Below, piece by piece: positions 39,058 to 52,994 of a stretch of DNA of 64,000 nucleotides. How positions within the stretch are numbered: position 1 is the first letter of the stretch; every line of letters begins with the position of its first letter. The position numbers and the translations under genes are program-made. This DNA is from Marinifilum caeruleilacunae (GTDB lineage Bacteria > Bacteroidota > Bacteroidia > Bacteroidales > Marinifilaceae), in the NCBI RefSeq assembly GCF_013141825.1, contig NZ_RZNH01000017.1, positions 34,617-98,616 of the forward strand. The letters are read 5' to 3'. The notes beneath the pieces were generated by a model that was given only the letters and a program-made list of their open reading frames with translations, did not search any database and had not been told where the DNA came from.

Positions 39058-40290
39058 TTACACGATAAACTGAAACAAATCAGTTTTGTCATTCAGGTAT
39101 TCGAAAACAAAATTTCGCTCGGTCATTCTCTCTTGCAACCTGTGTAAGTCCTCAGGCTTCCGAACTTCAATCCCAATTACCGCTGGTCCTTTTTCCCGGC
39201 TATGTTTTTTGTAATACTCAAAATGAGTGATATCATCGCCCTGATCCAAAACATCGTTTACAAACTCTTTAAGTGCTCCTGATCGTTGCGGAAAACGAAC
39301 AATAAAATAATGCTTTAAGCCTTCGTACAACAAACTGCGCTCTTTAATTTCTTCCATGCGTGTGATATCGTTATTGCTACCACTTAGAATGCATACAACA
39401 TTCTTTCCCTTTATTTGATCCGATATCAATTCCAGGGCTGCAATTGACAATGCTCCGGCAGGTTCTGCAACTATCGCATCTTCATTATACAATCGAAGAA
39501 TTGTTGAACAAATTAAGCCCTCGGGAACCACAACAATATCATCCAAAACTTTTTCACAAATTCGCCAGGTAAGATCTCCCACTTTTTGTACAGCTGCTCC
39601 ATCAACAAATCGATCTATGCTGTCCAGTGAAATATTCTCTTTTTGCTCAAAAGCAGATTTCATGGAAGGTGCACCTTCAGGTTCTACTCCAATAATTTTG
39701 GTTTGCGGACTAAATTCTTTAATCCAGGCTCCCAGGCCAGAGGCCAAACCTCCTCCTCCAATTGGCACGATAATGTAATCGATCGGATCGGAACAATCTT
39801 GCAAAACCTCCAATCCAATGGTTCCTTGTCCTTCAATAATTTTCGGATCGTCGAAAGGATGAATGAAAGTTTTTCCATGCTCTTTCGCATCGGCTAATGC
39901 CTGATTTGAAGCATCGTCGAAAGTATCTCCCGTAAGAATAACCTCAACAAACTCACCACCAAACATTTTTACCTGCTTAATTTTTTGGCGAGGCGTTGTT
40001 TCCGGCATATAAATAACACCCGAACAGTTCAACTTCCTACAGGAATAAGCTACACCCTGTGCATGATTTCCAGCACTGGCACAAACAATTCCCTTCTCGA
40101 GTTGCTCCTTGCCAAGTCCGGCTATCTTATTGTAAGCTCCTCTTATTTTGTAAGATCTTACCATTTGAAGATCTTCACGCTTTAAGCGGATATTGGCAGC
40201 ATATTTCAAAGACAGGTTCATATTTTTCAGCACAGGTGTAGTTTCAACCACCTCCTGTACAGTTCGGCCTGCCTTTACAATATCCGCCAT
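39058..40290 (-). CDS. ilvA: Threonine ammonia-lyase (threonine dehydratase), biosynthetic
   Basis: 410 aa from the ATG at 40290 (MADIVKAGRTVQEVV). The open frame reaches 40392 and would overlap leuB, so the internal start is preferred. The PLP lysine is in MVRSYKIRGAYNK (Lys about 48). GGGGLASGLG is the phosphate-binding loop. A single C-terminal ACT-like regulatory domain (about 325-410) is shorter than the double one of E. coli IlvA. It makes 2-oxobutanoate for isoleucine. It is the last gene of the leu operon, so it shares the leader 3 attenuator. A cimA-like gene in the same operon offers a second source of 2-oxobutanoate. Confidence 0.95.
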   Translation of the reverse strand: MADIVKAGRTVQEVVETTPVLKNMNLSLKYAANIRLKREDLQMVRSYKIRGAYNKIAGLGKEQLEKGIVCASAGNHAQGVAYSCRKLNCSGVIYMPETTPRQKIKQVKMFGGEFVEVILTGDTFDDASNQALADAKEHGKTFIHPFDDPKIIEGQGTIGLEVLQDCSDPIDYIIVPIGGGGLASGLGAWIKEFSPQTKIIGVEPEGAPSMKSAFEQKENISLDSIDRFVDGAAVQKVGDLTWRICEKVLDDIVVVPEGLICSTILRLYNEDAIVAEPAGALSIAALELISDQIKGKNVVCILSGSNNDITRMEEIKERSLLYEGLKHYFIVRFPQRSGALKEFVNDVLDQGDDITHFEYYKKHSREKGPAVIGIEVRKPEDLHRLQERMTERNFVFEYLNDKTDLFQFIV

Positions 40291-40361
40291 TTTTGGATAA
40301 TAATGTTCTGATTTTTTTGTCACTTTTCCCCCTTTGTGATTAAACAGCCACAGCTTTTTAT

Positions 40362-41432
40362 TTACGCTTTTTCTATATATTCTGCCAACCAATCTCCTAC
40401 TTCGGATGTTGAGTAAGCTTTCTTTCCGTCGGCAATATCTTCCGTTACCACGCCAGCTTCCAACGATTGGTCAACAGCTTCACGAATCAAGGCTCCTTCT
40501 TTCATCATGCCAAATGCATATTCGAACATCATTGCTGCAGAAAGTACAGTTGCACAAGGATTTGCAATATTTTTTCCTGCCGCCTGAGGATAAGATCCAT
40601 GAATTGGTTCAAACACCGAAGTATGAACCCCTATAGATGCTGATGGTAACATTCCCATTGATCCGGAAATTACACTTGCCTCATCGGTAAGAATATCTCC
40701 AAACATGTTTTCAGTAACCATTACATCAAATCGCTTTGGCCAGGTAATAATCTGCATGGCAGCATTATCTACAAACATGTATTCCACTTCGATATCCGGG
40801 TAATCGGGAGCTACTTTTTGCCCGATTTCTCTCCATAATCTCGAGGTAGCCAATACATTTGCCTTATCTACAATGGTTAGTTTCTTTCTTCTTTTTCCGG
40901 CATATTCAAAACCCAAACGAATAATTCTCTCAATTTCTTCGGCTGTATAAACGCAAGAATCGTAGGCGGTTTGTCCATCCTCACTTCTTCCTTGTGGGCG
41001 ACCGAAATAAATTCCTCCAGTCAACTCACGGATACACATAAAATCAGCACCATCAACCAATTCTGTTTTCAGTGGCGATTTGTGAATCAAGGATTTAAAA
41101 GTATTTACCGGGCGAAGGTTTGCATACAAACCCAGGGTTTTTCTCATTTTTAACAATCCTTGCTCAGGGCGAACCTTGGCCGAAGGATCATTATCAAACT
41201 TGGGATGACCGATTGCTCCAAAAAGAACTGCATCTGAGTTCATACACAATTCATGAGTTTCAGCAGGATAAGGATCTCCCACCTGATCGATTGCCGTTGC
41301 ACCAACCAAAGCTTCGGTATATTCAAACTTGTGCCCAAATTTCTTTGTAATTGCATTGCAAACTTTTTTTGCCTGTTCTACAATTTCTGGTCCTATACCA
41401 TCTCCGGCTAATACTGCTATTTTATAAGTCAT
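40362..41432 (-). CDS. leuB: 3-isopropylmalate dehydrogenase
   Basis: 356 aa, the normal length. The isocitrate/isopropylmalate dehydrogenase motifs are clear: [12 protein letters not shown] at the start, [15 protein letters not shown], and [25 protein letters not shown] (metal-binding Asp residues). It oxidatively decarboxylates 3-isopropylmalate with NAD in leucine synthesis; LeuB-type enzymes can also act on 3-methylmalate in the citramalate route. It lies 63 nt after the leuA2 (cimA-like) gene. Confidence 0.97.
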
Positions 41433-41495: not shown

Positions 41496-43064
41496 TTATT
41501 TATTGTTGTTCACTGATAAGGGTTCACTATAACTGCTATTTTGCTGCTCCATAAGGTTCAACATTCTCGCTGTTGCTTTAATGGCAGCTTCAACCTGGTC
41601 TGGATCCAATCCCCTGGTCTTAAACTCCTTTCCTTTAAAATCCCAGGTAATTAAAGTTTCTACCAAAGCATCGGTTTTACCTCCAGGCGGAATTCTAACG
41701 AAATAATCTTTCAAAACGGGACGCTCTTTTCCCAACTTCTCGTATACACTCCAAATGGCGTTCATAAAAGCATCGTATTGTCCATCTCCCGAGGCCGTTC
41801 CCTCGTGCATTTGCCCATTAACTTCGATGTTAACAGAAGCAAAAGGTCTCATTCCCTTCGATAAGGACAATGAATAATGCTTGATGAGAATTGGCATCTC
41901 TTCCATGCTTTGATTTAAAACATCAGAAACAATGTAAGGAAGATCTTCTGTGGTAACTGTTTCCTTCTTATCGCCAAGCTCTATCACCTTCTGAGTCACC
42001 TTTTTCATGGTTTCCTCTTCCAGGGTCATTCCTAATTCTTCCAGGTTTTTCTTGATATTTGCCTTGCCCGATGTTTTCCCTAAAGCATACTTTCGTTCAC
42101 GACCAAATCGTTCTGGCATTAAACGGTTAAAGTACAAGTCGTCTTTTGAATCACCATCGGCATGAACTCCACAGGTTTGCGTAAATACATTCTCGCCTAC
42201 CAATGGTTTATTGGCCGGAATTCGAACCCCCGAGAAGGTCTCCACGATTCTACTTACCGTATTGATTTTCTCTTCATTTACATTGATTTTTCGAGCCAGA
42301 TGATCTTTAATCACTCCAACCACTGAGGCCAATGGAGCATTTCCTGCTCTCTCTCCCAAGCCATTTACTGTGGTATGAATTCCGTTTACACCTGCCAATA
42401 CAGATGAATATACATTGGCCAATGCCAAATCGTAATCGTTATGGGCATGAAAATCAAAATGTAGTTTTGGATATCTTTCACGACAAGCATAGCAAAAATC
42501 AAATGCCTGAACCTGGTTCATTACTCCCAAAGTATCAGGCAACATAAACCTTTGAATGTTTTCATTCTGCAGTTCATCCAAGAGATACCAAACATAGTCT
42601 CTTGAAGTTAACATTCCATTCGACCAATCCTCAAGGTAAAGATTCACCTTTATGCCTAATTTTTCGGCGTAAGCAACCGCGTCCTTCACATCCTGAACAT
42701 GCTGTCCCGGCGTTTTTCGCAACTGCCCCTGAAGGTGCTTTAACGACCCTTTCGATAAAAGATTCACGACACGTGCACCACTTTTATAAATCCAATCCAG
42801 CGAAGCTCTCCCATCAATAAATCCAAGTACCTCGATTTTATCAATCATACCATTTTCATCGGCCCATTTGGTAATTTTCTTTACCGCCTGAAATTCTCCT
42901 TCTGATACTCTCGCGGAAGCAACTTCCAATCGATCTACTTTAACGGATTGCAACAAGAGTTTGGCAACACCCAACTTTTCATTGGCATTGAAACTCACTC
43001 CCGAAGTCTGCTCACCATCCCTGAGGGTGGTGTCCATTATTTCTAAGCTACGCAGTTCGTTCAT
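41496..43064 (-). CDS. Second LeuA-type synthase, possibly (R)-citramalate synthase
   Basis: 522 aa. HMGL-like TIM barrel with the metal site [17 protein letters not shown] and HAHNDYDLALAN, followed by a LeuA dimer/regulatory domain (about 385-510). It differs from the true LeuA downstream of leader 3 ([13 protein letters not shown]...CHNDLGMA). Such paralogues inside Bacteroidota leu operons are annotated variously as LeuA2 or citramalate synthase. If it uses pyruvate, with LeuCD and LeuB it would make 2-oxobutanoate without threonine. Seen: paralogy and domain content. Inferred: citramalate activity. Confidence 0.75.
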   Translation of the reverse strand: MNELRSLEIMDTTLRDGEQTSGVSFNANEKLGVAKLLLQSVKVDRLEVASARVSEGEFQAVKKITKWADENGMIDKIEVLGFIDGRASLDWIYKSGARVVNLLSKGSLKHLQGQLRKTPGQHVQDVKDAVAYAEKLGIKVNLYLEDWSNGMLTSRDYVWYLLDELQNENIQRFMLPDTLGVMNQVQAFDFCYACRERYPKLHFDFHAHNDYDLALANVYSSVLAGVNGIHTTVNGLGERAGNAPLASVVGVIKDHLARKINVNEEKINTVSRIVETFSGVRIPANKPLVGENVFTQTCGVHADGDSKDDLYFNRLMPERFGRERKYALGKTSGKANIKKNLEELGMTLEEETMKKVTQKVIELGDKKETVTTEDLPYIVSDVLNQSMEEMPILIKHYSLSLSKGMRPFASVNIEVNGQMHEGTASGDGQYDAFMNAIWSVYEKLGKERPVLKDYFVRIPPGGKTDALVETLITWDFKGKEFKTRGLDPDQVEAAIKATARMLNLMEQQNSSYSEPLSVNNNK

Positions 43065-43185: not shown

Positions 43186-43767
43186 TTACTCCTCCTCAAA
43201 TTCTTCTATATTTTCTTTTTTATTTAAGAGGTAATCGATGTCATCAAATCCATTCAACAAGCAGTTTTTCTTGTAAGGATTAATTTCAAATTCCTCTTTC
43301 ACTCCATTCAGTGATATGCTTTGTTCTTCAAGGTTAACAAGCAATTTCTGATTGTTATCTTCTTCAACTGCAGCAAAAACTTTGCTTAAAAACTCTGGAG
43401 ATACAACCACTGGTAGCACACCATTATTTAAGGCATTGTTTCTAAAAATATCTGCAAAGAAACTGCTGACAACCACCTTAAATCCATAATCGTGTACAGC
43501 CCATGCAGCATGTTCTCTTGAGGAACCACTTCCGAAATTTTTTCCGGCTACTAAAATTTGTCCAGAATATTTCGGATTGTTCAGAACGAAATCCTTGTTT
43601 TCCGATCCATCTGCAGCATACCTCCAGTCTCTAAATAAGTTCTCTCCAAAACCTTCACGACTTGTTGCTTTTAGGAATCGTGCAGGAATAATCTGGTCTG
43701 TATCTACATTTTCGATAGGAAGAGGTACATAACCCGACTCTAAAACGGTAAATTTATCTATTGGCAT
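43186..43767 (-). CDS. leuD: 3-isopropylmalate dehydratase small subunit
   Basis: 193 aa from the ATG at 43767 ([32 protein letters not shown] in parts). The frame continues to 43836, but the family starts here. The swivel domain motifs [14 protein letters not shown] and [16 protein letters not shown] are intact. It forms the isomerase with LeuC, whose stop codon lies 83 nt upstream. Confidence 0.96.
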
Positions 43768-43850
43768 TTTTTCATCTTTTAAGCAATTAGCGAACTGATC
43801 GTAATAGTTTCCAAGATCATCTTCAGCTAATAGCATTTGTACATTCTTTA

Positions 43851-45251
43851 TTAAAACAAGTCTCTTGGATCTGTAATTACACCAGTAACAGCTGCTGCTG
43901 CCGCGGTTAACGGACTGGCTAAAAGTGTTCTTGATCCCGGACCTTGTCTTCCCTCAAAATTTCTGTTCGAAGTAGAAACACTATATTTTCCAGCAGGAAT
44001 TTTATCATCATTCATTGCCAGGCATGCCGAACATCCAGGCTGACGCAATTCAAAACCTGCTTTTTCCAATACTTCTACCAATCCTTCTTCCTGGGCTTGT
44101 TTTTCTACCTGCTTTGAACCTGGTACAATCCATGCCGTTACAGAATCGGCTTTTTTCTTGCCTTTAACAACAGAGGCCAACATTCTTAAATCTTCGATTC
44201 TACCATTGGTACAACTGCCTACAAAAACATAGTCTACTTTCTTGCCCAACAATTGATCTCCCAGGCCAAAGCCCATGTATTCCAATGACTTTTTGAATGT
44301 TGGAAGTTCTGAAGCTTCCACTTCTTCAGCAGTTGGGATACTTCCCGAAATTCCTGTCCCCATTCCCGGATTCGTACCATAGGTCAGCATAGGTTCAATC
44401 TCCTCTGCCTTAAAAGTGTATTCTTTATCGAAAACTGCTCCCTCATCGCTTTTTAATTCTTTCCATTTGGCAACAGCTTTATCCCATTCTTCACCTTTGG
44501 GTGCAAACTCACGGCCTTTTACATATTCGAAAGTAGTATCGTCTGGAGCTATCATTCCTCCACGAGCTCCCATTTCGATGCTCATGTTGCACACAGTCAT
44601 CCTACCTTCCATACTCAAGTTGCGAACTGCCGATCCTGCATACTCCACAAAATACCCGGTTGCTCCACCTGTTCCCAGTTGAGAAATCACGTAAAGTGTT
44701 AGGTCTTTTGCTGTAACTCCTTTTTGCAATTCTCCATCAACAGTAATTCGCATTTTTTTAGGTTTTGGCTGAAGAATACACTGAGTAGCCAAGACCATTT
44801 CAACTTCCGAAGTTCCAATCCCAAAAGCAACGGCTCCAAAAGCTCCATGAGTAGAGGTATGACTATCGCCACAAACCATTGTCATGCCAGGTTGTGTATG
44901 TCCAAGTTCAGGGCCCACAACATGTACAATCCCATTTTTAGGGTGGTTCAGACCATAAAGTGTAATATCATTCTTCTCACAATTTGCACTTAAGGTTTCT
45001 ACCTGCTTTCTTGATAACTCATCCTGAATGGTCAGGTGCTGATTTTCGGTAGGAATGTTATGATCGGGCGTCGCAACAGTTTTTTCAGGTCGGAAAACTT
45101 TAAGGCCACGTGCCTCAAGACCTGCAAATGCCTGCGGACTGGTTACCTCATGTATCAAATGTTTATCGATATACAATACACTAGGACCTCCATCGATTTT
45201 CTCAACCACATGAGCATCCCATACTTTATCAAATAATGTTTTTGGTTCCAT
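43851..45251 (-). CDS. leuC: 3-isopropylmalate dehydratase large subunit
   Basis: 466 aa. Aconitase-family motifs: [24 protein letters not shown] in pieces, and the three [4Fe-4S] cysteines in GSCTNGR and [10 protein letters not shown]. It isomerises 2-isopropylmalate to 3-isopropylmalate. Length is typical (about 465). It lies 47 nt after leuA. Confidence 0.97.
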
Positions 45252-45298: not shown

Positions 45299-46795
45299 CT
45301 AGTAAACCACTTTCGATAGCGCATCTACCAAGGCTTCAACCGAAGCAGTAATAATATCAACATTGGCTCCAAATCCGTAAACCACTTTTCCATTGTGTTC
45401 CAACTGAACATGAACTTTTCCAAGGTCATCGCTTCCACGTGTTAATGCCTGTACAAGGAATTCTCCCAATGTGAATTTTTGTTTGATCAGTTTCTTTACT
45501 GCGTTGAAACAGGCATCGATCGGACCATTTCCTTCGGCTGTTGCAGCACAACTTTCACCTTTTATTTTAAGATGAACTGTTGCCATTGGTATGGTCGATT
45601 TACCTGATACTACCTGTAACAATTCCAACTCTACAGTTTTGTCAAGATTCTCTTTTTCTCCCATCAACTCGGCAAGATCTTTCTCGCTTAAGTTCTTACG
45701 CTGATCAGCCATAACCAGGAATCTAGAATAAGCGTCATCCAACTCCTCTTTCGACAAGTTATAACCCATCTGTTCCAGGTGATGATTCAATGCTGCACGA
45801 CCACTACGCGCTGTCAATACGATAGCCGATTCCTGAATTCCAACTTCAACCGGATCAATAATTTCGTAGTTCTCCCTGTTTTTCAATACTCCATCCTGGT
45901 GGATTCCAGAAGAGTGCGCAAAAGCGTTACGACCTACAATAGCCTTGTTGGCCTGTACCGGCATGTTCATTAATGATGATACCAGGCGACTGGCTCCATA
46001 AATCTCTTTTGTATTGATATCGGTATGCAATGGCAAATCATGATGAGTTTTTACAGCCATTACAACCTCTTCCAAAGAAGTGTTCCCTGCGCGCTCTCCA
46101 ATACCATTAATGGTAACCTCAACCTGGCGAGCTCCGTTAATTACGCCGCTAAGAGAATTGGCTGTTGCCATCCCCAAATCGTTATGACAGTGAGTAGAAA
46201 GAACTGCTTTGTGCACATTGGAAACATTTTCCATTAGGTATTTGATTTTTGCACCATATTCAGCTGGCAAACAGTAACCGGTTGTATCAGGAATATTAAT
46301 TACAGTTGCTCCTGCAGCAATTACAGCTTCTACAACTCTTGCCAAATATGCATTGTCCGATCGGCCTGCATCCTCTGCATAAAACTCAACATCCTCCACA
46401 TAACGTTTTGCATATTTTACAGCTCGAACTGCTCGTTCTAAAATTTCTTCAGGATTCGAATTTAATTTTGACTTGATATGATATGGTGAAGTTCCAATTC
46501 CGGTATGGATTCTTCCTCGCTTTGCAAATTTGAGTGCTTCGGCAGCAACATCTATGTCTTTTTCAACCGCACGTGTCAATGCACAAATGGTTGGATTACT
46601 TACTGCTTTAGCGATCTCGACGACCGATTGAAAATCCCCTGGACTTGAAACCGGAAAGCCAGCTTCAATTACATCAACACCTAAGGCCTCAAGTGTTTTT
46701 GCCACTTCAATCTTTTCAATAGTATTCAATTGGCAGCCTGGCACTTGTTCACCATCGCGCAATGTTGTGTCGAAAATAAATAACTTGTCACTCAT
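45299..46795 (-). CDS. leuA: 2-isopropylmalate synthase
   Basis: 498 aa. HMGL-like barrel (about 1-270) with [15 protein letters not shown] and [15 protein letters not shown] metal sites, a linker with [15 protein letters not shown], and a LeuA regulatory domain (about 370-498) that binds leucine for feedback inhibition. It makes the first committed step of leucine synthesis. It is the first structural gene after the leader 3 attenuator, whose terminator lies about 45 nt upstream of the start codon. Confidence 0.96.
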
Positions 46796-47302: not shown

Positions 47303-48349
47303 CTAGCTATTTTCCGGGCGAAGCTTACGAACCGCTGTTCCAGCTTGCCACATTTCGCTTTCGCGAAGTTCCTTCAATTCTTCTTCCAACTTTACACGAT
47401 AGTTTTCCTCGCTATTCGAGTCTATCGAACGCTGTGCCTCGTTTCCTGCAGATACTTCATTATAAAGCTTTTCGAAAACTGGCTTGGTAGCATCACGGAA
47501 CGGTTTCCACCAATCCAATGCTCCACGCTGCGCTGTGGTTGATGTATTTGCATACATCCAATCCATTCCGTTTTCGGCTACCAAAGGCATCAAACTCTGA
47601 GTCAATTCCTCAACGGTTTCGTTAAAAGCCTCCGATGGTGAGTGTCCATTTGCACGAAGCACTTCATACTGTGCTGCAAAAATTCCCTGTATACATCCCA
47701 TCAATGTTCCACGCTCGCCTGTTAGGTCTGAATATACCTCTCTCTTAAAGGTAGTTTCGAACAAATATCCTGAGCCTACACCAATCCCCAAGGCTACTAC
47801 TCTGTCAAAAGCTTTTCCTGTAGCATCCTGGAAAATTGCGTACGATGAGTTCAAACCTCTTCCTTCCAGGAACATTCTTCTCAAGCTGGTTCCCGAACCT
47901 TTAGGGGCAACCAAAATTACATCAACATCGGCCGGAGGAACAATTCCTGTGCGTTCTTTATATGTGATCCCAAATCCGTGCGAGAAATACAAAGCTTTCC
48001 CTGGAGTCAAATATTTTTTCACTGTTGGCCATACTGCAATCTGCCCTGCATCCGAAAGCAAATATTGAATGATTGTTGCCTTCTCCAAAGCTTCTTCAAT
48101 TTCGAAAAGCGTTTCTCCTGGTACCCAACCATCAGCAACGGCCTTATCCCAGGTCTTCGATTCTTTACGCTGACCAATAATTACATTAAAACCGTTATCC
48201 TTTAGGTTTAACGATTGACCTGGTCCTTGTACACCATAACCAATAATTGCAATGGTTTCTTCTTTTAATACTTCGCGAGCTTTTTCCAATGGAAATTCCT
48301 CACGAGTTACAACTTGTTCTTCTACGCCGCCAAAATTAATTGTTGCCAT
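47303..48349 (-). CDS. ilvC: Ketol-acid reductoisomerase
   Basis: 348 aa, class I short form plus a C-terminal tail. The Rossmann motif is IGYGVQGPGQS, and the cofactor loop IGQRKESKTWDKA has Arg/Lys/Ser residues that fit NADPH. Mg-binding and catalytic residues lie in the knotted C-terminal domain (DLTGERGTLMG, with the acidic residues that bind Mg). It converts 2-acetolactate and 2-aceto-2-hydroxybutyrate in the Val/Leu and Ile branches. It is the last gene of ilvDBNC and lies 71 nt after ilvN. Confidence 0.96.
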   Translation of the reverse strand: MATINFGGVEEQVVTREEFPLEKAREVLKEETIAIIGYGVQGPGQSLNLKDNGFNVIIGQRKESKTWDKAVADGWVPGETLFEIEEALEKATIIQYLLSDAGQIAVWPTVKKYLTPGKALYFSHGFGITYKERTGIVPPADVDVILVAPKGSGTSLRRMFLEGRGLNSSYAIFQDATGKAFDRVVALGIGVGSGYLFETTFKREVYSDLTGERGTLMGCIQGIFAAQYEVLRANGHSPSEAFNETVEELTQSLMPLVAENGMDWMYANTSTTAQRGALDWWKPFRDATKPVFEKLYNEVSAGNEAQRSIDSNSEENYRVKLEEELKELRESEMWQAGTAVRKLRPENS

Positions 48350-48420: not shown

Positions 48421-48936
48421 TTAGTGTGATAATTCTTTCAAATAACTTGTAAATTCTTTTTTCTGACAGGAAACAGCTACTCGTCCCGATCTTGCAAACT
48501 GCAGTACTCCGTATTGTTCCAACTCGTTGAACAGTTCCTGATTTTCTGCTTTGTAACCAACTCTTTCGATCACCAAAAAATCCGGATTTACTGTAAGTAT
48601 CTTTGCATTCTGTCTTCGAATTAAAGCTTCAAGGTTTCCATTCAATTTGGGAGAGTTGGCAATTTTAAAAAGTGCTACTTCCTGGTGAACGATATCATCG
48701 GCTTCAAAATAAAGCGCCTTAAATACGCCGATAATTTTTTCAAGCTGGCGAACCACGTTCTCAATCTTCTTTTCTTCAGAGAAGACTACAATGGTATATC
48801 TCGAAACACCTTTTACTTCAGATTCTGAAACCGTTAAACTTTCGATATTTATTTTTCGTCGCGAGAAAACTATCGTTACCTCATTCAACAATCCTATATT
48901 GTTTTCGGAAAAAACCGTTATTGTATATTCTTTCAT
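48421..48936 (-). CDS. ilvN: Acetolactate synthase regulatory (small) subunit
   Basis: 171 aa. An N-terminal ACT domain (about 3-75; ITVFSENNIGLLNEVTIVFSRRKINIESL in parts) and a C-terminal ACT-like domain match the long small-subunit class (IlvH type). It confers valine feedback on IlvB. It lies 86 nt after ilvB. Confidence 0.93.
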   Translation of the reverse strand: MKEYTITVFSENNIGLLNEVTIVFSRRKINIESLTVSESEVKGVSRYTIVVFSEEKKIENVVRQLEKIIGVFKALYFEADDIVHQEVALFKIANSPKLNGNLEALIRRQNAKILTVNPDFLVIERVGYKAENQELFNELEQYGVLQFARSGRVAVSCQKKEFTSYLKELSH

Positions 48937-49022: not shown

Positions 49023-50777
49023 TTATTCAAGTCTCATGTCAGAAACTGCTGCCCCAGGAGCAATCATTGGCAATACATTGCTTTCTGTTTCAACAACAAC
49101 TTCAAGGAAATATGCGCCAGGAAAATCCAGCATCTCCTGAATCGCATCTTGCAATTCTTCACGCTTACTAACCCTTCTGGCTTTAATTCCATATCCTTCA
49201 ACAATCTTTACAAAATCCGGATTGTCCATTTCCGTGTAAGAGAATCTTTGTTCAAAAAACAGATCCTGCCACTGACGAACCATTCCAAGGAAAGAGTTGT
49301 TCAATACAATCGATTTTACAGGCAACTTGTATTGACGAATTACCGCTAGTTCCTGTATGGTCATCTGAAATCCACCATCACCAGATACCGAAACTACCGT
49401 TGCATTTGGATCTGCAATTTGGGCTCCAATTGCCGCTGGCATTCCAAATCCCATGGTTCCCAAACCTCCCGAAGTAACCTGTGTATTCGGATTTTTGAAT
49501 TTGTAATACCTGGCACTTGTCATTTGGTGCTGACCTACATCGGTACACAGAATGGCTTCTCCATTGGTTTTTTCCGATAAGCTGTCGATTACCTCGGCCA
49601 TATTGATTCGCTCACGACTCGAATGGGTCTGCTTTTCAATTACTTTATCAAATTCCAATTGATAATAATCTTTAAAAGTTTGCATCCATTCTTCCCTGTA
49701 ATCACCGTTTACTTTGGTATTCAATGCATGTAATGCTTGTTTGGCATCGGCCAATACAGGTACATCAACAGTAATATTCTTATTGTGCTCCGATCGATCG
49801 ATATCGATATGAATAATTTTTGCCTGTTTGGCATATTTTGAGGTATCACCTGTTACACGATCATCGAAACGCATTCCAACTGCAATCAACACATCACATT
49901 CATTGGTATTCATGTTCGGACCATAATTTCCGTGCATTCCAAGCATTCCAACATACAATGGATGATCGGTAGGGAAAGCCGACAAGCCCAACAATGTACA
50001 GGCTACTGGTATTTGAGTCTTCTCCACAAATTCCATAAACTCCTGCTCGGCACCCGACAATAGAATTCCCTGTCCAGCCAAAATCAAAGGCTTCTTTGCA
50101 GCATTGATCAATTCAGCTGCCGCTGATATTTCATCCATATTCAACTTGGGTACAGGTTGATAAGATCTAAGTCCCTTACATCTTTCGTATTTGTACTCGG
50201 CTTTTTGCACCTGGGCATCTTTTGTAATGTCGATCAAAACTGGTCCCGGACGACCTGTACGTGCAATGTAAAATGCCTTTGCAATTACTTCTGCTACTTC
50301 TTCCACTTTCGTGATTTGGAAGTTCCACTTGGTAACTGGCATCGAAAGACCAACCATATTGGTTTCCTGAAAAGCATCTGTTCCCAATAATCCACTTGGC
50401 ACCTGACCTGTAATTACAACCATTGGTGTAGAATCCAAATATGCATCGGCAAGGCCTGTCAGCAAGTTGGTTGCTCCCGGACCCGAAGTTGTGAAGCAAA
50501 CACCTGGTTTCTTTGTAATTCTGGCATATGCCTGGGCACTATGGGTTGCACCTTGCTCATGACGTGACATATAGTGTTTCAATTCTTTCTGATAATCGTA
50601 CAATGCATCGTACACTGGCATGATTGCTCCGCCGATATATCCAAACATGGTATCAACACCTTCCTGAATTAAACTTCGAACCAATATTTCTGCACCCGAT
50701 AAGATTTCGGTGGTCTTATTCATCTCTTTGATATTTTCGGTTTTTGTTGCTGTTTCCATCTTGTTAAGTTTTTGCAT
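49023..50777 (-). CDS. ilvB: Acetolactate synthase catalytic (large) subunit
   Basis: 584 aa. Thiamine diphosphate enzyme with the catalytic Glu in RHEQGATHSAQAYAR, FAD-binding middle domain, and the ThDP/Mg motif GDGGFQMTIQELAVIRQYKLPVKSIVLNN in pieces. It condenses pyruvate with pyruvate or 2-oxobutanoate. The longest frame starts one base after the ilvD stop codon. An internal ATG at 50759 (METATKTEN) or 50720 (MNKTTEILSGAEILV) would remove residues not seen in the family, so the exact start is uncertain. Confidence 0.96.
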   Translation of the reverse strand: MQKLNKMETATKTENIKEMNKTTEILSGAEILVRSLIQEGVDTMFGYIGGAIMPVYDALYDYQKELKHYMSRHEQGATHSAQAYARITKKPGVCFTTSGPGATNLLTGLADAYLDSTPMVVITGQVPSGLLGTDAFQETNMVGLSMPVTKWNFQITKVEEVAEVIAKAFYIARTGRPGPVLIDITKDAQVQKAEYKYERCKGLRSYQPVPKLNMDEISAAAELINAAKKPLILAGQGILLSGAEQEFMEFVEKTQIPVACTLLGLSAFPTDHPLYVGMLGMHGNYGPNMNTNECDVLIAVGMRFDDRVTGDTSKYAKQAKIIHIDIDRSEHNKNITVDVPVLADAKQALHALNTKVNGDYREEWMQTFKDYYQLEFDKVIEKQTHSSRERINMAEVIDSLSEKTNGEAILCTDVGQHQMTSARYYKFKNPNTQVTSGGLGTMGFGMPAAIGAQIADPNATVVSVSGDGGFQMTIQELAVIRQYKLPVKSIVLNNSFLGMVRQWQDLFFEQRFSYTEMDNPDFVKIVEGYGIKARRVSKREELQDAIQEMLDFPGAYFLEVVVETESNVLPMIAPGAAVSDMRLE

Positions 50778-50778
50778 G

Positions 50779-52614
50779 CTACAATTGACGTATTGCTCCT
50801 TTATCTGCCGAGGAGACTAATTTTGCATAAGCCTGGAGGGCTTTCGAGACGACTCGACCTCTTCCTCTTGGTGTATATGCTTTTGTTCCAAAACTCTCCT
50901 CTTCGGCTCTTCTTTTTTGAAGTTCTTCCTCCGAAATGCAGACATTAATACTTCTGTTTGGAATACTAATTTCGATTGGGTCGCCATCCTGAATCAGTGC
51001 AATTGCACCTCCAGCGCCTGCTTCTGGCGAGACATGTCCGATCGACAAACCTGAGGTTCCCCCTGAAAATCTTCCATCTGTAATTAGTGCACATTTGGCT
51101 CCCAGTCCCATCGATTTCAGGTAGGAAGTTGGGTAAAGCATTTCCTGCATTCCCGGTCCTCCCGATGGTCCTTCATAACGAATTACCACTACATCGCCAG
51201 CATTGACTTTTTTGGTGAGGATGGCTTCACAAGCATCTCGCTGCGATTGATAAACCTTTGCAGTTCCTTTGAAGTTAAATACCTCTTCGGCTACTCCTGC
51301 AGTCTTCACCACACAACCATCAGGAGCTATATTTCCAAACAAAACTGCCAATCCTCCATCCTGTGTATAAGCATTCTCCATACTTCTGATGCAGCCATTT
51401 TCCCTGTCATCATCCAAATCGGGGTAAACTTCGTTTTGAGAAGCAAAACTTAGATTTCTTCCGCGTCTTCCCGGACTTGAATAATAGGTTGACAAGGCTT
51501 TATCGCTAACTGAATTCGATTTTAGATTGTACTCGTCCAATGCCGCCTTTAAATTTGGATAGTCAACTCGTCCAACGCTGGTATTCAGTAAACCGCCATC
51601 AGCCAGTTCGCCAAGAATACTCATAATTCCACCGGCACGATTCACATCTTCGATGTAGTACTTGTCGGAATTTGGTGCCACTTTACACAGGTTGGGCGTT
51701 TTTCGCGACAATTCATCCATGTCTTTCATCGTGAATTCTACTCCTGCCTCGCTGGCAATGGCTAGCAGGTGAAGAACCGTATTGGTCGATCCTCCCATGG
51801 CAATATCCAAAGTCATTGCATTTTTGAAAGCTTCGAAACTTGCAACCGATCTTGGCAATACGCTCGCATCTCCATCGCGGTAGTATGCATTGGTGATCTT
51901 TACGATACATTCCGCAGCATCCATAAACAAGCGTTTGCGATTTGCATGGGTGGCCAGGACCGTTCCATTTCCAGGCAGTGCCAATCCTAATGCCTCGTTC
52001 AGGCAATTCATCGAATTGGCCGTAAACATGCCGGAACATGAACCGCATGTAGGACAAGCTGATTCCTCAATCTCCTGCAAACGTTCATCGCTCACACTCT
52101 CGTCGCCCGCTTTCACCATAGCATCTACCAAATCGAGTTTTTCTCCTTTCGATTCTCCGGCTTCCATTGGTCCTCCCGATACAAAAACCGTTGGGATATT
52201 TAGCCTCATGGCGGCCATCATCATTCCTGGTGTAATTTTATCGCAATTCGAAATACAAATCATCGCATCTACCTTGTGTGCATTACACACATATTCAACG
52301 CTATCGGCTATCACCTCTCTCGAAGGTAATGAGTACAACATCCCATCATGTCCCATTGCAATTCCATCGTCGATGGCAATGGTATTGAACTCAGCAGCAA
52401 AGCAACCCGATTTCTCAATTTCCTGCTTTACCATCTGTCCAACATCCTTTAAATGAACGTGTCCCGGAACAAATTGCGTAAAAGAATTTACCACAGCAAT
52501 TACAGGTTTGCCAAACATTTCCTCTTTCATTCCGTTGGCACGCCAAAGACTCCTGGCTCCTGCCATTCTTCGCCCCTGTGTGGTTTGCTTACTGCGTAAC
52601 TGATTTTTATACAT
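50779..52614 (-). CDS. ilvD: Dihydroxy-acid dehydratase
   Basis: 611 aa, the long form. The three Fe-S ligand cysteines are in [27 protein letters not shown] and the preceding SxC motif region. [21 protein letters not shown] near the C-terminus contains the catalytic Ser. It dehydrates 2,3-dihydroxyisovalerate and its methylvalerate analogue. First structural gene of ilvDBNC, with the attenuator terminator (52693-52725) about 80 nt upstream. Confidence 0.97.
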
Positions 52615-52749: not shown

Positions 52750-52839
52750 TTATTGTGTATGCACGTCTTCCCTGATCCTCATTTTAATAATGACGATAGA
52801 AATAATAATGACGATAATGACTACGTTAAATGATAACAT
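52750..52839 (-). CDS. ilv operon leader peptide 2
   Basis: 29-codon gene, ATG at 52839, TAA at 52750-52752. The peptide carries the run VVIIVIIISIVII (residues 6-18), then KMRIREDVHTQ. It has 9 Ile and 5 Val codons and one Leu, far above chance. It lies after a first leader/terminator and before the second terminator and ilvD. The tail codons AGG GAA GAC GTG C can pair with the 5' arm of the terminator at 52693-52725. It thus fits a ribosome-mediated attenuator sensing charged Ile and Val tRNA. Too short for gene callers. Confidence 0.93.
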   Translation of the reverse strand: MLSFNVVIIVIIISIVIIKMRIREDVHTQ

Positions 52840-52853
52840 ACAATAACCTGATC

Positions 52854-52884
52854 AAAAAAAAGCCCCTTCGTTTGAAGAGGCTTT
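52854..52884 (-). terminator. First attenuator terminator of the ilv operon
   Basis: On the - strand AAAGCCTCTTC (52874-52884) pairs with GAAGGGGCTTT (52859-52869, one G-U pair), AAAC loop, then a U-run (52854-52861). The 5' arm segment AAGCCTC can pair instead with GAGGCTT (52926-52932) in the leader 1 gene. Confidence 0.92.
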
Positions 52885-52913
52885 AGATATTTTGTAAAAT
52901 TTTATTCCGTTTA

Positions 52914-52994
52914 CTAAAACATGCGAAGCCTCGTTCCGTGTCCAAGAAGGACGCGAATAATGACGTTAATAATAATGACATTGCTTAAAGGCAT
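52914..52994 (-). CDS. ilv operon leader peptide 1
   Basis: 26-codon gene, ATG at 52994, TAG at 52914-52916. The peptide has NVIIINVIIRVLLG (residues 5-18) and a basic tail GTRLRMF. It has 5 Ile, 3 Val and 4 Leu codons. It is the first of two in-series leaders in front of ilvD, and the ilv promoter lies about 90 nt upstream. The tail segment GAGGCTT (52926-52932) is complementary to the 5' arm of the terminator at 52854-52884. The mixed Ile/Val/Leu content suggests sensing of all three amino acids. Confidence 0.9.
   Translation of the reverse strand: MPLSNVIIINVIIRVLLGHGTRLRMF

Follow-up and report, generated by a model that had tools for sequence, protein, structure and literature searches.

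Leader-peptide attenuators predicted in series upstream of ilvDBNC, with a third before the leu genes, in Marinifilum caeruleilacunae and related Marinifilaceae

Leader-peptide attenuation is textbook knowledge for enteric bacteria, in which the ilvGMEDA, ilvBN and leu operons have one attenuator each. The 64,000-nucleotide stretch of Marinifilum caeruleilacunae DNA that we analyzed (the window, to which all positions refer) raises the question why ilvDBNC should be preceded by two. A first-pass annotation had claimed that two small genes of 26 and 29 codons with runs of Ile and Val codons lie one after the other upstream of ilvD, each followed by an intrinsic terminator of its own. Our analysis suggests that both units, LP1-T1 and LP2-T2, are ribosome-mediated transcription attenuators that would act in series as an AND gate on ilvDBNC, and that a third, LP3-T3, stands before leuACD-cimA-leuB-ilvA. 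Judging from sequence comparisons and RNA folding, we regard this reading as very probable.

All features lie on the minus strand, in the order promoter-like pair, stem-loop, LP1, T1, LP2, T2, ilvD, ilvB, ilvN, ilvC, LP3, T3, leuA, leuC, leuD, CimA-like gene, leuB, ilvA. Both small genes upstream of ilvD are where the annotation had placed them. LP1 (52994-52914, with ATG at 52994 and the stop codon ending at 52914) encodes the 26-residue peptide MPLSNVIIINVIIRVLLGHGTRLRMF, in which codons 6-17 form a run of Val, Ile and Leu, and LP2 (52839-52750) encodes the 29-residue peptide MLSFNVVIIVIIISIVIIKMRIREDVHTQ, with a run of Val and Ile at codons 6-18. The claimed terminators are likewise present, on the same strand and ahead of ilvD. 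T1 (52884-52859) and T2 (52727-52699) each consist of strands 3 and 4 of their module, with an 8-T run that starts within the stem. The genes behind them are ilvD, for dihydroxy-acid dehydratase (50779-52614; NF009103 and TIGR00110, both above cut-off), ilvB, for the acetolactate synthase large subunit (49023-50777; TIGR00118), ilvN, for the small subunit (48421-48936; TIGR00119 above cut-off, NF008864 slightly below), and ilvC, for ketol-acid reductoisomerase (47303-48349; TIGR00465). Chance does not readily produce such an arrangement: dinucleotide shuffling of the 480 nt upstream of ilvD gave no leader plus terminator unit in 300 trials, and 1000 shuffles gave no ATG-initiated ORF in which I, L or V filled 10 of 12 positions, versus two observed there. 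A bidirectional terminator serving a plus-strand gene was also considered and was rejected, as inspection by eye revealed no plus-strand T run after the hairpins.

The leader would start at a predicted main promoter, P1 (53115-53083), with a -33 element TTTG (53115-53112), a 21-nt spacer and a -7 element TACATTTG (53090-53083). The elements TTTG and TAYATTTG are aligned in 23 core loci, and we take P1, as well as the predicted promoter P3 described below, to belong to the Bacteroidota promoter type TTTG/TAnnTTTG. The promoter-like pair of this type seen in the leader sits upstream of LP1, the gap between T1 and LP2 having been read by eye; a scan for sigma-70-type promoters gave weak minus-strand matches at 52927-52899 and 52829-52802, near LP2, which count somewhat against the serial reading. 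In that reading, both attenuators would be carried on a single leader RNA, about 460 nt long, ahead of ilvDBNC.

Just past the predicted start site, the 5' untranslated region can form a stem-loop (53073-53023) with a 10-bp stem (TTTGTCAACG/CGTTGACAAA) and a 31-nt loop, for which the minimum free energy is -14.2 (z -2.5 and -3.2). The first 22 bases have one exact match in the genome of M. caeruleilacunae and one match with three mismatches. Few stretches of the leader are as conserved as this stem-loop, and among the loci examined it is confined to this clade. Control could thus be imagined to lie here, with an RNA aptamer, a T-box or a protein acting on the stem-loop and the small ORFs being mere accessories. 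However, no Rfam family, and hence no T-box or riboswitch family, reaches its gathering threshold anywhere in the window, and relatives with a single leader lack the stem-loop: apart from three weak partial matches, it is missing from the 202 loci numbered above L044. We therefore consider control through the stem-loop very improbable.

If LP1-T1 and LP2-T2 are attenuators, their RNA should be able to adopt two alternative structures, depending on the position of the ribosome. In module 1, a hairpin 1:2 (52957-52935; TTCG.GTCC/GGAC.CGGA) is predicted ahead of the antiterminator strand 2, GAGGCTT (52932-52926), which lies within LP1 codons 21-23. The equivalent elements in module 2 are hairpin 1:2 at 52797-52775 (ATCGTCATT/AATGAGGAT) and strand 2, GGGAAGACGTGC, at 52772-52761, within LP2 codons 23-27. 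We folded window RNA cut just past strand 3 and allowed no pairs under a ribosome footprint, for which we chose the region between 17 nt upstream and 11 nt downstream of the first base of the A-site codon, with the A site at codon 6 through to the stop. The computed probability of the antiterminator for LP1 is 0.98 at codons 6-17, 0.82 at codon 18, 0.19 at codon 19 and 0 from codon 20. For LP2 it is 1.00 at codons 6-19, 0.65 at codon 20 and 0-0.02 thereafter, and for LP3 0.92 at codons 6-21, 0.26 at codon 22 and 0 from codon 23. The ends of the three runs (codons 6-17, 6-18 and 7-20) coincide with the flip of the switch in all three modules. Hence, in the folds, each module has an alternative antiterminator that begins with a 5' strand directly after the regulatory codons, which adds to the other features of the broad class of leader-peptide attenuators that are present here, a cognate-codon ORF and an intrinsic terminator upstream of the first structural gene.

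The predicted switch differs from the three-state model known from trp. Folds of ribosome-free window RNA give the antiterminator (2:3) probabilities of 0.98, 1.00 and 0.91 in modules 1, 2 and 3, so untranslated leaders should be read through, unlike in trp. Moreover, hairpin 1:2 adjoins the core of strand 2 and does not exclude the antiterminator in folds of window RNA. Being compatible with 2:3, it does not fit the trp scheme, and neither competition between 1:2 and 2:3 nor superattenuation is seen in the window folds. When five masked states per module were computed on full-length RNA, the terminator won in four of five for module 1, the exception being a stall near codon 12, and in five of five for modules 2 and 3. 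Because the terminator dominates on full-length RNA, the switch would have to be kinetic, a situation that truncation before strand 4 imitates; the full-length result is as expected of a kinetic choice, but is not proof of one.

A comparison of ilvD upstream regions in related Marinifilaceae and other Bacteroidales had been suggested as a check on the annotation, and its outcome agrees with it. We found IlvD in 61 of the 116 relatives searched and used the upstream DNA of all 61 (L001-L030 and L111-L141, a few of them clipped at contig ends). Twenty-two loci with an IlvD identity of at least 84% form a core clade (the next locus has 72%), with Marinifilum, Ancylomarina, Labilibaculum and Marinifilaceae MAGs as named counterparts. 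Two leader plus terminator units are present in 22/22 core loci, and both leaders with their Ile/Val runs are conserved throughout; T1 was detected or aligned in every one. The modules of L008 and L013 are identical. From the last stem base of T1 to the ATG of LP2, the distance is 19-23 nt in all 22. The constant pair and its spacing, the alternative helices in the folds and the positions of the runs make two leader-peptide attenuators in series, as the annotation had proposed, the best supported reading of the locus.

Beyond the core clade, the picture is different. The remaining 39 of the 61 regions comprise 24 with one unit, one with one unit after a spurious call was dropped, three with two and 11 with none. 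Among the named loci, which are the best 80 of 571 in a genome collection and whose 14 core members include several of the same contigs as the 22 above, all 14 core loci have two units, while the 66 others comprise 45 with one, four with two and 17 with none. An order-wide search detected IlvD in at least 168 of 393 genomes, and 105 new upstream regions from it were examined (L142-L166 and 80 more): 73 have one unit, two have one after dropping, two have two and 28 have none. Overall, the 206 distinct non-core regions divide into 139 with one unit, three with one after dropping, nine with two and 55 with none, two of these 55 offering less than 200 nt of sequence to scan. Of 31 regions with little coding sequence, 19 were trimmed by position instead of alignment. 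On these counts, one predicted ILV leader upstream of ilvD is usual in the Bacteroidales examined; core Marinifilaceae regularly have two, and other lineages only sporadically.

The non-core loci with two units are those of Sunxiuqinia (L063), Mangrovibacterium (L069) and Prolixibacteraceae (L083), as well as L062, L112, L136, L139, L245 and, doubtfully, L155, in which the two units are widely separated. Outside the core, the automatic scan made 12 calls of at least two units; three of them (L129, L209 and L212) were judged spurious by eye and counted apart, since their first "leader" lacks a clear ILV run or resembles the tail of an upstream gene. L138 and L140 may carry two units, yet they fall below the unit rule. 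When the two-unit label (24 rows, including the doubtful L155) is mapped on a quickly built IlvD tree with 117 rows, it needs five changes, at least four of which are forced by well-supported branches, although horizontal transfer or missed units could alter this count. Two-unit arrangements outside the core clade probably have a separate origin.

The conservation data also bear on the idea that LP1 and LP2 are independent small proteins, for instance membrane peptides or Ibs-like type I toxins, which have come to lie before ilvD by chance. Both are strongly hydrophobic, with 22-29 residues, and hydrophobic peptide genes do occur in tandem in the Ibs/Sib toxins. Yet the pair precedes ilvD in all 22 core loci, and the terminators can pair with the end of the peptide gene itself. 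At the codon level, it is the synonymous codon GTC that is favoured, and not merely valine. In addition, most of the other Bacteroidales regions examined have a single ILV-rich leader plus terminator in the corresponding position, flanked by other residues. We give the small-protein explanation hardly any weight.

Are both modules functional? Compensatory changes support module 2, in counts of two-sided changes that are inflated by related rows. Its antiterminator has 94.8% of cells paired, compared with 41-64% in slid controls, and three pairs changed on both sides; 9/500 shuffles reach its covariation score, 23/500 its number of two-sided pairs and 148/500 its number of further pair types. 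Two pairs of hairpin 1:2 changed on both sides, and one pair of the hairpin is broken in 13/21 rows including the window; its covariation score is reached by 0/500 shuffles and its two-sided pair count by 34/500. For T2, 98.9% of cells are paired and two pairs changed on both sides, with 0/500 shuffles reaching the covariation score, 99/500 the two-sided pairs and 497/500 the further types. The antiterminator of module 1 has 87.9% of cells paired, compared with 33-64% in slid controls, but it shows no two-sided changes and 500/500 shuffles do as well, so covariation lends it no support. The outer pairs of hairpin 1:2 of module 1 fail in this register in L002-L005 and L032. In module 3, the antiterminator is invariant over 13 rows and therefore uninformative.

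Modules 1 and 2 also look like copies of each other. They share a GTCATTATTATT...CGTCATTATT run, shifted by one codon, and the motif AAACGAAWTTA (with at most one mismatch) occurs between stop codon and terminator in 15/22 first modules, 21/22 second modules and 0/136 single-leader relatives. The shared run and this motif suggest that the two modules arose by tandem duplication. Similarity over the whole module beats all 200 mononucleotide shuffles in eight of ten loci, the exceptions being L018 (equalled by 2/200) and L020 (14/200). Most of the non-coding matches fall within T runs and the stems of the terminators, and the likeness could also be due to codon runs and terminators having converged.

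Copies need not both work. LP2-T2 could be the sole working attenuator, with LP1-T1 a duplicated relic or a fixed partial terminator that senses nothing, and both the lack of compensatory changes in the module 1 antiterminator and the resemblance of the modules are compatible with this. However, the frame, the run, the GTC bias and the terminator of LP1 are kept in 22/22 core loci, which argues against a relic, since a relic would decay. Among 20 distinct rows, six of the seven antiterminator pairs are kept in at least 19 (the seventh is broken in 16), and the folds with a masked ribosome give LP1 a clean switch. A single working attenuator at LP2 therefore seems unlikely, although less so than the two explanations rejected above, and we continue with two attenuators in series.

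The annotation covered the leaders of ilvD; the third unit and the leu half of the cluster are additional to it. LP3 (46990-46901; 29 codons, MMYASSLIIGLILILDLIIIRRSNRKTVL) lies between ilvC and leuA and has a run of Leu and Ile at codons 7-20. It is followed by the terminator T3 (46872-46846), whose strand 3, TCTTCC (46867-46862), can alternatively pair with GGAAGA (46917-46912) within LP3. The gap between ilvC and leuA was readable in 12 of the 14 named core loci, and LP3 and a terminator are present in 12/12, plus the window. In the other loci of this comparison in which leuA follows ilvC, no leader was found in 14 gaps of 14-57 nt and one of 281 nt; in the rest, leuA is beyond the locus or located elsewhere. 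The gap also contains a predicted internal promoter, P3 (47037-47071), with TTG at 47071-47069, a 24-nt spacer and a -7 element TACGTTTG at 47044-47037. The pattern AATTGTTTT...TAnGTTTG is found in 12/13 rows, the stretch excised for L031 being without that region. Because of this promoter-like site, LP3 may work on a separate transcript in addition to read-through from ilvC.

Downstream of T3 are leuA (45299-46795), leuC (43851-45251), leuD (43186-43836), a CimA-like gene (41496-43064, between leuD and leuB), leuB (40362-41432) and ilvA (39058-40392). The CimA-like gene scores 663 bits against the model for (R)-citramalate synthase, below its cut-off of 950, and the name is therefore to be taken as a lead. 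Such an enzyme would feed isoleucine synthesis via the leu enzymes.

The products of ilvDBNC make valine and isoleucine as well as the precursor of leucine, and those of leuACDB make leucine and, together with citramalate synthase, isoleucine. The residues of the leaders match these pathways. In 21/22 core loci, the LP1 run contains Val and Ile, plus Leu adjoining strand 2. The LP2 run has no Leu in 16/22 and a single CTA codon in 6/22, and the LP3 run consists of Leu and Ile, with no Val, in 13/13. The amino acids of each leader thus fit the genes behind it, as far as sequence can tell. The suggestion that separate amino acids might gate expression holds up in part: Leu is present in the LP1 run in 21/22 loci and absent from the LP2 run in 16/22, the remaining six LP2 runs having one Leu codon. 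In Sunxiuqinia, both leaders mix Val, Ile and Leu, so a division of labour between the leaders is not general.

The leaders are also biased in their choice of codons. GTC is the rarest Val codon in the long ORFs of the window (30/1144 Val codons, 2.6%), but it accounts for 49/55 Val codons in LP1 and 57/94 in LP2 (20 core loci, with L013 and L015 left out). Before the hairpin strand, the fractions are 33/39 for LP1 and 42/64 for LP2 over 22 loci. The leaders of 49 other Bacteroidales loci have 81 GTC among 178 Val codons, compared with 24.5 expected from their own genes, and CTC makes up 21/61 Leu codons in LP3, compared with 2.7% in long ORFs of named core loci. The retention of GTC may partly be due to the run being built of GTCATTATT repeats.

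A search of the M. caeruleilacunae genome revealed at least three Val tRNA genes, all with anticodon TAC, among 75 tRNA matches that were all checked with ARAGORN; as 150 of 500 first-look candidates were scored, a Val tRNA could have been missed. The single-contig relative G016 also has at least three Val tRNA genes, all TAC, among 68 of 84 matches checked (the 16 omitted were five long-armed genes and eleven matches that scored the same as repeats checked before). According to the sections of PMC1183508 drawn on here, an attenuator is sensitive only if its regulatory codons are rare and are served by a suitable isoacceptor. If the single kind of Val tRNA that we found is the only one, selective charging cannot act, and only codon rarity and slow wobble reading could. 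The TAC-anticodon tRNA would decode GTC by wobble only, and stalling at this rarest of Val codons should therefore be very sensitive to the supply of valine.

Together, our data suggest the following model. RNA polymerase would make the leader RNA while a ribosome translates the small gene. When charged tRNA for the codons in the run is plentiful, the ribosome would reach the end of the small gene and cover strand 2, so that strands 3 and 4 could form the terminator. A ribosome stalled on the run would leave strand 2 free to pair with strand 3, and the polymerase would read through. With two such switches in series, expression of ilvDBNC would be the product of two read-through chances. Shortage of isoleucine or valine would open both switches, and shortage of leucine mainly the first, so that only a partial response to leucine would be expected. 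At the leu genes, LP3 would add a switch that responds to Leu and Ile; through the CimA-like enzyme, these genes would also serve isoleucine. A stronger version of the model would have a code of three gates, each leader sensing precisely those amino acids that its genes make, a multiplied AND response, sensing of valine via GTC without a G34 tRNA, by slow wobble and not by isoacceptor charging, and several origins of serial ILV attenuators in Bacteroidales. We advance this full set of claims tentatively, as possible rather than probable.

How does this proposal compare with known systems? The predicted attenuators resemble those of the enteric ilv and leu operons in the short ORF with cognate codons, the alternative between antiterminator and terminator, and the terminator before the first biosynthetic gene. 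They differ from the single enteric attenuators in that two are in series and a third lies inside the cluster, in that hairpin 1:2 leaves 2:3 possible in the folds, and in that valine is specified mostly by its rarest codon while the Val tRNA genes found are of one kind. The enteric ilvGMEDA, ilvBN and leu operons are listed as attenuator-controlled in the cited part of PMC1183508. The sources for two Firmicutes, Staphylococcus aureus (PMC5794164) and Listeria with Rli60 (PMC5864092), describe, in the portions used, a leader with branched-chain codons and a terminator before ilvD of an ilv-leu operon, as seen here, with support from reporters or mutants; unlike here, there is one leader in each, and start-codon mutants of Rli60 behaved as super-attenuators, an effect that our folds do not predict. 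In Mycobacterium tuberculosis ilvB1NC, a two-state model has been put forward in which a ribosome that has reached the stop codon covers the antiterminator, and one stalled on branched-chain codons leaves it free (PMC13236596, from the excerpts used). The folds of our modules behave in a similar two-state manner, with read-through expected for a ribosome-free leader, but the M. tuberculosis leader is single in those excerpts and stands in a different phylum and gene order.

The closest precedents for a serial arrangement are of other kinds. The excerpted text of PMC3641672 presented the tandem attenuators mgtM and mgtP of Salmonella mgtCBR in 2012 as "a singular example". These are two short ORFs in series in one leader that respond to independent signals, and LP1 and LP2, whose order, spacing and strand fit, would resemble them if one transcript carries both. 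The signals in mgtCBR are ATP and proline, however, and its structures are unlike intrinsic terminators, whereas T1 and T2 look like intrinsic terminators; moreover, the leaders described here are specific for amino acids and precede the corresponding biosynthetic genes, in another phylum. The same excerpts cite the tandem riboswitches of Bacillus clausii metE as two terminating regulators that act independently in series on one transcript, but those bind their metabolite directly and involve no translation. Until its own case from the Firmicutes, a 2010 survey (PMC2965389) knew, in the portion used, of leader-peptide systems in Proteobacteria and Actinobacteria only; the Staphylococcus and Listeria cases came later. 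A transcript map of Bacteroides thetaiotaomicron (PMC7366714) mentions, in the part used, short ORFs reminiscent of leader peptides. Our literature search, mostly of open-access papers represented by parts of their text, found no leader-peptide attenuators in series before amino-acid genes, and none are described in the available portions of PMC4974804, PMC4117421, PMC4122931, PMC5794164, PMC5864092 and PMC13236596. Within this literature, we therefore take the serial arrangement as a new form of known attenuation.

The proposal seems worth pursuing, as attenuators in series are a well-defined system in which to test how the effects of independent terminators multiply. The combination of GTC codons and TAC anticodons likewise tests the theory of synonymous codon choice in attenuators, as given in the cited sections of PMC1183508. 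For the bacteria themselves, leader-peptide attenuation appears to be a widespread form of ilv gene control in Bacteroidales, and in one family the attenuators appear to be arranged one behind the other and divided between amino acids. If the proposed gating is right, the ilv-leu pathway of these bacteria would switch on stepwise, according to which amino acid is short.
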